Source: Moheibacter sediminis (GTDB lineage Bacteria > Bacteroidota > Bacteroidia > Flavobacteriales > Weeksellaceae). From it: 64,000 nucleotides of DNA. The translations under genes and the position numbers were made by a program. Location of the stretch: assembly GCF_900176425.1 (NCBI RefSeq), contig NZ_FWXS01000001.1:558001-622000 (forward strand), in the 5' to 3' direction. Below the pieces are notes generated by a model. It made no database searches. It had not been told where the DNA came from and was given only the letters and a program-made list of their open reading frames with translations. The first letter of the stretch is position 1, and every line of letters starts with the position of its first letter. Shown here piece after piece: positions 50,370 through 51,670 of this stretch.

Positions 50370-50601
50370 TTTAAATTAAATTTTGGATTGCAAAGATAAT
50401 TCAGATGAAAGTATAATGTATAAAGTATAAAGTAAAATCTGTAATTAAGGAAAAGAAATTGATTATAAAAAATCCTCTAAATAATCAGAAGAAGAAATGA
50501 TTTTAATTGTGGCGGCTAAGAATGGCTTGTTCAAAGCTATAATAAGATTGTTTTCTGAATGATTGTTTTCTGAACACTGAGGACTAATACTAAATGTGTT
50601 A

Positions 50602-50625
50602 AAAATACCAAGATCTTGGTATTTT
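50602..50625. promoter_or_regulatory. Perfect 24-bp palindrome (operator) of sRNA locus 1
   Basis: Each half reads AAAATACCAAGA/TCTTGGTATTTT; the palindrome is exact. Its centre is about 46 bases before the predicted transcription start, a position typical for activator sites. Confidence 0.7.
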
Positions 50626-50645
50626 ATCGGAAGGATTTATTATGA

Positions 50646-50653
50646 TATATTTG
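50646..50653 (+). promoter_or_regulatory. -7 box of sRNA locus 1
   Basis: TATATTTG fits TAnnTTTG, 20 bases after the palindrome; no good TTG -33 at the standard distance, consistent with activator dependence. Confidence 0.65.
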
Positions 50654-50659
50654 CTTTTA

Positions 50660-50739
50660 TAAAGCTAATAGCTTTTCATAGGTTTAGGTTGGTTAAGGTA
50701 ATACCCTCGTTTGAAAAAGCGAGGGTATTCTTTTTTTTT
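50660..50739 (+). ncRNA. Predicted small RNA 1 (about 80 nt) with intrinsic terminator
   Basis: From the predicted start near 50660: a 5' hairpin AAAGCT-AAT-AGCTTT (50661-50675), a single-stranded stretch GGTTTAGGTTGGTTAAGG, and a terminator stem AATACCCTCG/CGAGGGTATT (50700-50729) with a run of T. No start codon or plausible peptide is seen in the transcript. Identical organisation to the second locus. A link to the Rfam Flavo-1 motif is possible but untested. Confidence 0.65.
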
Positions 50740-50742
50740 CTT

Positions 50743-50895
50743 TTATTGCAAACCTCTTGCTGAAACATCGGGTTGTTCGCCTTGCGGAACGATGAAAATG
50801 GCTTCATCATGGATGGTGTCGCCTGCATCGAAATAATAACTGCCGGTCACAGGCATGATATTGCTTGTAAATTTCCCATTTTCATATTTATTAGT
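50743..50895 (-). pseudogene. C-terminal gene remnant
   Basis: On the minus strand, 50 sense codons in frame, with GSYYFDAGDTIHDEAIFIVP and QGEQPDVSARGLQ, end at TAA (50743-50745). An in-frame stop lies just upstream (50896-50898) and no start codon is seen before the middle of the fragment, so it is the 3' piece of a lost gene. It ends 4 bases after the terminator of small RNA 1. Parent family not recognised. Confidence 0.55.
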
Positions 50896-50902
50896 TTAAA
50901 TG

Positions 50903-51268
50903 TTACTGGACTGTGATTGTTTTATTGATATCATAATCGCATTGACCATTGTTTAAGGAAACGTTCAATGTTACCGTATAAGTGCCCGGTTGATCATATG
51001 TATGTGATATAATATCTGATGATGCGGTCTGTACAGGAGTGTTGTCACCAAAATTCCAGTTAACTGTATTATCCAAAGCCATCTCTCCATAATAGCTAAA
51101 TTTAAAGTCTATATGTAGTGAATTATTTGGGTCTGTAAAACTGTTAATCTCAATCAGTAAATTTTGTCCGAAACAGTCAACAACATCTTTGACATCGTCA
51201 TCGCTGCATGATGAAAGAGCGGTAGCAGCAAAAAGTAAAGAAAGGAAGAAAATAGATAATTTTTTCAT
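50903..51268 (-). CDS. PKD-domain lipoprotein
   Basis: A 121-residue lipoprotein with leader MKKLSIFFLSLLFAATALSSC (lipobox cysteine 21) followed by a Ser/Asp-rich linker and one PKD-like domain: NWNFGDNTPVQTASS and HTYDQPGTYTVTLNVS. Probably displayed in the envelope; function unknown. It lies between the two small-RNA loci on the opposite strand. Confidence 0.8.
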   Translation of the reverse strand: MKKLSIFFLSLLFAATALSSCSDDDVKDVVDCFGQNLLIEINSFTDPNNSLHIDFKFSYYGEMALDNTVNWNFGDNTPVQTASSDIISHTYDQPGTYTVTLNVSLNNGQCDYDINKTITVQ

Positions 51269-51397
51269 GGAATGTATTTTAGTTTTAATTTTTTGAAGTC
51301 ATAAAGTTAGTTTAATTATTAACGGAATTAAATCTAACAATCAATAAATTGTAATTTGGTTTATTATTTAATCCATCAGAAATTAGTTTTATGAAAT

Positions 51398-51422
51398 AAA
51401 AAATCCTCTGAATAATCAGAGG
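51398..51422 (-). terminator. Minus-strand terminator
   Basis: On the minus strand CCTCTGA/TCAGAGG with a T-run. It would end transcripts from the methyltransferase gene after they cross small RNA 2 antisense. Confidence 0.65.
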
Positions 51423-51516
51423 AAGAAATGGTTTTAATTTTGGTGGCTAAGAGTAGCTTGCTCAAAGCTATAAAATGATTGTTCCTTAATGGATGTAATT
51501 AATGTTAAATATCACG

Positions 51517-51540
51517 AAAATACCAACATCTTGGTATTTT
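51517..51540. promoter_or_regulatory. 24-bp near-palindrome (operator) of sRNA locus 2
   Basis: AAAATACCAA-CATC-TTGGTATTTT: 10-bp perfect arms as in locus 1, changed centre. 20 bases ahead of the -7 box. Confidence 0.7.
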
Positions 51541-51560
51541 ATCGGAAATATTTATTATGA

Positions 51561-51568
51561 TATATTTG
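51561..51568 (+). promoter_or_regulatory. -7 box of sRNA locus 2
   Basis: TATATTTG, 20 bases after the palindrome, exactly as in locus 1. Confidence 0.65.
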
Positions 51569-51574
51569 CCTTAT

Positions 51575-51650
51575 AAAGCTAATAGCTTTTCATAGGTTTA
51601 GGTTGGTTAAGGTAATACCCTCGTTTGAAAAAGCGAGGGTATTCTATTTT
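51575..51650 (+). ncRNA. Predicted small RNA 2 (about 76 nt) with intrinsic terminator
   Basis: Same layout as small RNA 1: hairpin AAAGCT-AAT-AGCTTT (51575-51589), GGTTTAGGTTGGTTAAGG linker, terminator AATACCCTCG/CGAGGGTATT (51614-51643) with a T-rich end. The linker and terminator are nearly identical in both loci, pointing to selection. The transcript ends about 20 bases before the methyltransferase stop codon and faces it. Confidence 0.65.
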
Positions 51651-51670
51651 TATGTGTTTTGATATACTTT

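Follow-up and report, generated by a model that had tools for sequence, protein, structure and literature searches.

In Vibrio and Streptococcus, respectively, the Qrr sRNAs and the CiaR csRNAs are sets of several siblings driven by one response regulator. NarL sites have a 7-2-7 form, and in Bacteroidota transcription usually starts 5-7 nt after the -7 box. The small-RNA circuits of Flavobacteriia are little explored. Rfp18 of Flavobacterium psychrophilum is a trans-acting sRNA described as pairing via a third stem-loop (PMC9723704). In Bacteroides thetaiotaomicron, FopS (BTncRNA_FopS) forms a 14-member paralogous family whose RNAs have a single-stranded 5' stretch, then a Rho-independent terminator, and a UUUUCAU...UUAG...GGUUA core; they are described with canonical promoters, and a regulator is not named (PMC11697453).

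Here we analysed 64,000 nucleotides of Moheibacter sediminis (contig NZ_FWXS01000001.1, positions 558,001 to 622,000; the window) containing two related loci. We consider it probable that these belong to a multicopy family of trans-acting sRNAs that act post-transcriptionally and of which seven copies are most likely under a TPR kinase/NarL-type system.

Two predicted sRNA loci in the window

The preliminary description had depicted twin blocks in which a palindrome and, 20 bases further on, TATATTTG are followed by a 5' hairpin, then by an invariant linker and lastly by an intrinsic terminator, and we found this arrangement in both copies. The features are as follows.

50602-50625, no strand: putative palindromic operator of copy 1, AAAATACCAAGATCTTGGTATTTT, a perfect 12+12 inverted repeat
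50605-50622: 18-bp core of this operator, ATACCAAGATCTTGGTAT, TACCAAG-AT-CTTGGTA, NarL-type 7-2-7 form
50646-50653, + strand: Bacteroidota -7 promoter element of copy 1, TATATTTG, 23 bp downstream of the 18-bp core
50659-50739, + strand: sRNA of copy 1, predicted transcript of about 80 nt, start predicted from the promoter
50661-50675, + strand: 5' hairpin of copy 1, AAAGCT-AAT-AGCTTT (arms 50661-50666 and 50670-50675)
50672-50698, + strand: near-invariant core of copy 1, CTTTTCATAGGTTTAGGTTGGTTAAGG
50681-50698, + strand: linker of copy 1, GGTTTAGGTTGGTTAAGG
50700-50739, + strand: intrinsic terminator of copy 1, AATACCCTCG/CGAGGGTATT (arms 50700-50709 and 50720-50729, T-run from 50731)
51517-51540, no strand: putative palindromic operator of copy 2, one centre base unlike copy 1 (18-bp core 51520-51537)
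51561-51568, + strand: -7 promoter element of copy 2, TATATTTG, 20 bases after the palindrome
51573-51651, + strand: sRNA of copy 2, predicted transcript with predicted start
51575-51580 and 51584-51589, + strand: arms of the 5' hairpin of copy 2
51586-51612, + strand: near-invariant core of copy 2 (linker 51595-51612)
51614-51651, + strand: intrinsic terminator of copy 2 (arms 51614-51623 and 51634-51643)
50465-50552, - strand: duplicated flank, first copy, TAGCTTTG then a terminator-like hairpin
51396-51483, - strand: duplicated flank, second copy, 88 nt, 89% identical to the first

The RNA parts of the two copies (88 nt) are 95% identical and the operator/promoter parts (73 nt) 85% identical. 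Relative to shuffled sequence, the predicted transcripts fold with z-scores of -5.6 and -4.5. In the lowest-energy structure predicted for the window copies, another pairing replaces the AAAGCT hairpin and leaves the core partly sequestered. Because the next genes converge on both copies, with no downstream gene on the sRNA strand, we ruled out that these RNAs are leaders or attenuators.

The whole duplication spans about 280 bp and includes the 88-nt minus-strand flank, so conservation inside the window pair alone partly reflects duplication. This corrects the earlier argument from conservation; the stronger evidence comes from the other copies in the genome and in other genera. The minus-strand flank hairpins have z-scores of -1.7 (first copy) and -3.8 (second copy), and the TAGCTTTG elements lie upstream of metG (copy 1) and of a PKD lipoprotein gene (copy 2). 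This flank could possibly encode a divergent small transcript or leader.

A predicted sRNA family in the genome and in relatives

The M. sediminis genome (G000; 3.23 Mb, 27 contigs) contains at least 13 relatives of the window RNA, seven with the palindrome and the others without it. The family is composed as follows.

Type A (5' hairpin, core, terminator): the two window copies, C21:2028xx, C14:557033, C17:56426
Type B (core at the predicted 5' end, without hairpin): C9:144161, C9:182283, C10:16950, C11:89372
Further members: C18:24959, C17:73013 and a 3' UTR copy, L020:3528-3608
Two shorter FopS-like copies: C21:203268, C15:199246

The palindrome precedes both window copies, C21:2028xx and the four type B copies, and is absent at C14:557033, C17:56426, C17:73013 and C18:24959. 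R1, a covariance model that we built on 17 type A sequences, detects family members in 30 of 198 Weeksellaceae genomes and 5 of 33 genera, including all six genomes of the Moheibacter genus (6/6); named relatives with the family are Empedobacter, Faecalibacter and Moheibacter lacus. A looser form of the sRNA is present in marine Flavobacteriaceae MAGs. Across genera, type A copies show almost no variation in the core CTTTTCATAGGTTTAGGTTRGTTA. The covariance analysis proposed at the outset showed that the hairpin and terminator covary: 90.2% of alignment cells are paired and covariation is 0.731, compared with 0.197 +/- 0.016 for shuffled alignments and at most 0.181 for slid partners, values that lean towards the model because the alignment was fitted to R1. 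The suggestion of a regulatory-RNA family is thus supported by comparative genomics, with its many copies, seven of them operator-linked, kept in congeners.

M. lacus has three tandem sRNAs with an operator at each, and operator-linked sRNAs also occur in the congeners G001 (two, diverged) and G003 (one). The C17 copy that has no palindrome is common to G001, G002 and probably G005 and is apparently orthologous, and the palindrome was not found at two g21 family copies checked in G131. Because of these palindrome-free copies, it seems that family members came under the two-component operator within the Moheibacter genus.

Other short RNA-like elements were seen in these genomes. A different multicopy sRNA, GAGTTTTCATGGTACTTAAGTTTTAGTAGAGAGG plus terminator, occurs in G005 (L258, G005:C26:18300-19500) as three tandem copies with a conserved TACTATTCTTTTCATAAGGTAGTT ahead, and also at G002:C1:99818, G001:C48:88761 and G000:C12:22254; it scores 27-31 bits with the FopS model. 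Faecalibacter loci L049 and L053 carry tandem short sRNA-like elements, TTTTTTATAGTAGTTTAGGTTGGTTAAAAAGG plus terminator, several within about 1-2 kb. Many Streptococcus genomes match the degenerate core pattern, and we took these matches as unrelated.

The putative operator and its candidate regulator

Allowing up to two mismatches, the palindrome has 11+12 strand matches in the genome versus 1+3 for a reversed control. TAnnTTTG boxes have a frequency of 0.0008 per window position, but most palindrome sites have one at a distance of 21-23 bp. This excess and this fixed distance exclude chance. Nine palindromes are exact or near-exact: seven precede a family sRNA and two precede secreted-protein genes, one beside a two-component operon and one at another secreted protein. 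At every palindrome-bearing sRNA promoter of this genome, TAnnTTTG follows the 18-bp core at a spacing of 22-23 bp. The spacing is 21 bp at one congener site, and M. lacus and G003 have TTAnTTTG as their box. In G002, some palindrome-like sites had no promoter at the right spacing. A palindrome-like site at C21:41398, apparently within coding sequence, was judged to be chance, and a 17-bp variant palindrome gave scattered single matches across the family genomes that were mostly chance-like.

A dimeric regulator had been proposed to bind at about -46. Comparative genomics supports such a regulator, but with the usual start 5-7 nt after the box the palindrome centre would lie near -43, an activator position. 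No consistent TTTG was found in the -33 region of the operator-linked promoters, which makes class-II-like activation the natural reading. At G000:C15:47224 (L025), upstream of a large secreted-protein gene, a diverged palindrome lies 22 bp from TAAGTTTG with a leader, AAACCTATGAAACC, that is antisense-like to the sRNA core; this site is a possible further regulon member.

The palindrome at C14:208422 lies between a gene for a 111-aa secreted protein and an operon encoding the following pair.

G000:C14:208.5-211.0 kb: TPR histidine kinase and NarL/LuxR-type response regulator

This operon is conserved; the response regulator has REC and GerE domains (best solved relatives VraR, ChrA, NarL and DesR) and the kinase HisKA_3. 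The palindrome stands between the secreted-protein gene and the operon in 5/5 congeners with the complete locus, and in G001, G002, G003 and G005 it is 21-22 bp from the box of the secreted-protein gene. Two other genera, represented by four genomes, have an 18-bp inverted repeat at exactly 22 bp in their orthologous locus. In G131 (g21), where the kinase orthologue is 37% identical, the site is ATACCATATTTATGGTAT; in three g9 genomes, with about 30% kinase identity, it is ATCACGG(C/T)ATTATGTGAT. TACC sites go with the regulator recognition helix TVE(T/S)HKKN, and ATCAC sites with TVETHRKN (TIETHRKN in one case), so that half-site and helix change together across genera. No such inverted repeat was found at a further distant orthologue (G105). 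The putative target promoters carry the 16-bp 7-2-7 inverted repeat at constant spacing. Given the conserved adjacency and a 22-bp repeat that changes with the recognition helix, the palindrome is best read as the operator of the kinase-linked response regulator.

A second LuxR-type protein flanks the C8 palindrome, and the type A sRNA at C14:557033 (L021, G000:C14:553-561 kb), which has no palindrome, directly follows a 7TMR-DISM kinase/NarL-type regulator operon. Because other LuxR-type or NarL-type proteins flank these two sites, we infer the identity of the regulator rather than observe it. The C14:557033 sRNA lies 0.9 kb before the window.

The two-component-linked secreted-protein gene has GGTTTAGGTTGGTTAGG plus terminator in its 3' UTR (R1 score 33.8 bits). 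This sRNA-like core is clear in G000 and G005, where G005 has two cores flanking a hairpin, partial in G002 and G003, and hardly recognisable in G001. With 3' UTR cores in several congeners, it seems that some members of the genus have this RNA module on the operator-driven mRNA as well.

Known families and search for targets

An Rfam scan, one of the proposed checks, returned no family at or above the gathering threshold. The suggestion that the RNAs relate to Flavo-1 did not hold, as that model gave no match even at E <= 5. A text search of one library of papers found neither the core nor the palindrome sequence. The other suggestion, that the family is undescribed, fits the lack of an Rfam family at threshold but is qualified by a distant resemblance to FopS. 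We did not assign the RNAs to FopS (RF04319), whose gathering score is 56 bits: the window scored 22.3 bits, C14:557 26.0 and the best match in the genome, a type C copy, 30.2. At E <= 1 RF04319 had nine matches in this genome, of which four are type A sRNAs and two are shorter copies also found by R1. Conversely, on 14 viral contigs that had been selected for carrying the FopS core, R1 gave five matches (E 0.3-1.5) that included FopS sites. FopS is bound by RbpB, an RRM-1 protein; the RbpB-type domain RRM_1 (PF00076) gave no match in six congeneric genomes, and Bacteroides ihuae was matched.

Our first idea, that the core is antisense to translation starts (UUUUCAU against AUGAAAA), was unsupported by the leaders of this genome. 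Antisense matches to complete leaders, TAACCAACCTAAACC-ATGAAAA, comprised only the sRNA copies in this genome; complementary leaders of TonB/SusC genes were not found, SusC-type mRNAs being those that FopS represses at the start codon; and ACCTAA(N0-5)ATGAAA leaders showed no excess over the reversed pattern beyond the sRNAs. Duplex energies and antisense k-mers over 617 and 605 translation-initiation regions, sampled from 40 stretches (800 kb) of the M. sediminis genome plus the window, about one quarter of the genome, revealed no excess for the G/U-rich seed; the seeds may be short. Including the part antisense to AUGAAA gave a slight excess of about 2 s.d. (about 600 sampled translation-initiation regions), as expected where such starts are common. 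By analogy, antisense pairing with mRNAs is the likeliest action, with protein titration as the main alternative.

Proposed circuit and alternatives

Our comparisons show the sequence family, its covariation, the fixed geometry of the palindrome and its conserved link to the two-component locus. From these we infer transcription, regulator binding, the sign of regulation and the mode of action, and propose the following circuit. The window blocks would be members of a multicopy, trans-acting sRNA family, seven copies of which are most likely controlled by the TPR histidine kinase and its NarL/LuxR-type regulator. When phosphorylated, the regulator would bind TACCAAG-AT-CTTGGTA as a dimer centred near -43 and activate transcription from an otherwise poor promoter. 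Its targets would be the sRNAs, the divergent gene for the small secreted protein and the sRNA-like element in that gene's 3' UTR. The released RNAs would expose a U/G-rich core, AGGUUUAGGUUGGUUA, that is largely unpaired and precedes the terminator. Their action would be post-transcriptional and would most likely consist in mRNA pairing, like that of the FopS siblings in Bacteroides.

The palindrome might belong instead to another, repressing regulator, such as the TPR-LuxR protein L015:4131-5663 or an unlinked repressor, with the two-component linkage only marking one regulon member. The LuxR-type protein beside the C8 palindrome would fit this, as would a site that abuts the -33 region and is compatible with repression. 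We think it unlikely, given that the kinase-regulator operon alone is next to the palindrome in all congeners that have the locus, and that its orthologue in other genera has a same-spacing repeat that changes with the recognition helix. Far less credible is that the copies are functionless repeats, mobile or passive, such as REP-like elements. The family is multicopy, and tandem in one congener; but promoter spacing, hairpin and terminator are kept with compensatory changes while the flanks differ, and the C17 copy is apparently orthologous in several congeners.

Two further alternatives concern what the RNAs do. They could titrate a protein as a CsrB-like sponge, the UUUAGGUUGGUUA module binding an RNA-binding protein whose free level the palindrome-controlled and 3' UTR copies adjust. 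A core nearly invariant across genera, the paired cores of the G005 3' UTR and the absence of mRNA target enrichment in the sampled regions agree with this, but most of the RNAs carry a single motif, no candidate protein was found (nor was RRM_1 in the genus) and high dosage would be needed; we regard it as improbable. Its specific version, a two-component output through a bank of siblings (seven stand-alone and one in a 3' UTR) titrating a non-RRM RNA-binding protein via the ultraconserved UUUAGGUUGGUUA, seems rather doubtful; if true, it would be a CsrB-like sponge circuit in Bacteroidota. A real possibility, somewhat short of an even chance, is that the family is the Flavobacteriia branch of FopS, homologous to RF04319 and antisense to translation starts (UUUUCAU/AUGAAAA). 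This reading is about ancestry and target mode, and it does not conflict with two-component control. The shared architecture, the four type A sRNAs among the nine RF04319 matches, the FopS-bearing sites among the few viral-contig matches of R1 and intermediates in other Flavobacteriales (G036, G038) favour it, against which type A copies reach 22-26 bits where 56 is the gathering score, the RRM partner was not found in the genus, FopS is described without a shared operator, target leaders are not enriched and type B copies have no UUUUCAU.

The system proposed here is a multicopy regulon of sibling sRNAs controlled by a two-component system, with an operator and an RNA family of its own. Our results supply a concrete family with a covariance model, point to its likely regulator and operator, and reveal that it has expanded within a single genus. 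If the proposed circuit is true, it would be a Bacteroidota case of a NarL-type two-component system with largely RNA output. FopS-like RNAs may then also form an ancient class spread across the phylum, independent of RbpB in some lineages.

Comparison with known systems

The Flavo-1 RNAs of Rfam are likewise found in Flavobacteria, but their model does not match these RNAs. Rfp18, compared by description only, is also a flavobacterial trans-acting sRNA and differs in pairing through a third stem-loop. FopS is closer in having many paralogues per genome (at least 13 here), the same architecture and a similar core; its unstructured 5' stretch directly before the terminator fits type B, whereas type A adds a 5' hairpin. 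It differs in that seven copies here share a putative NarL-type operator and RbpB-type RRM_1 was not found in the genus. It is plausible that the window RNAs work like FopS and are distantly homologous to it, and because the curated score was not reached and PF00076 was not found in the six congeneric genomes we do not file them as members. The candidate operators resemble NarL/NreC 7-2-7 operators in their TACC...GGTA arms, 16-bp inverted repeat and NarL-type regulator; here the consensus is TACCAAG-AT-CTTGGTA, in an activator position directly upstream of Bacteroidota TAnnTTTG promoters. Like Qrr and the CiaR csRNAs, the seven copies would be sibling sRNAs under one two-component response regulator; they differ in the type of regulator, and here one sibling lies in the 3' UTR of a protein gene that would be co-regulated.
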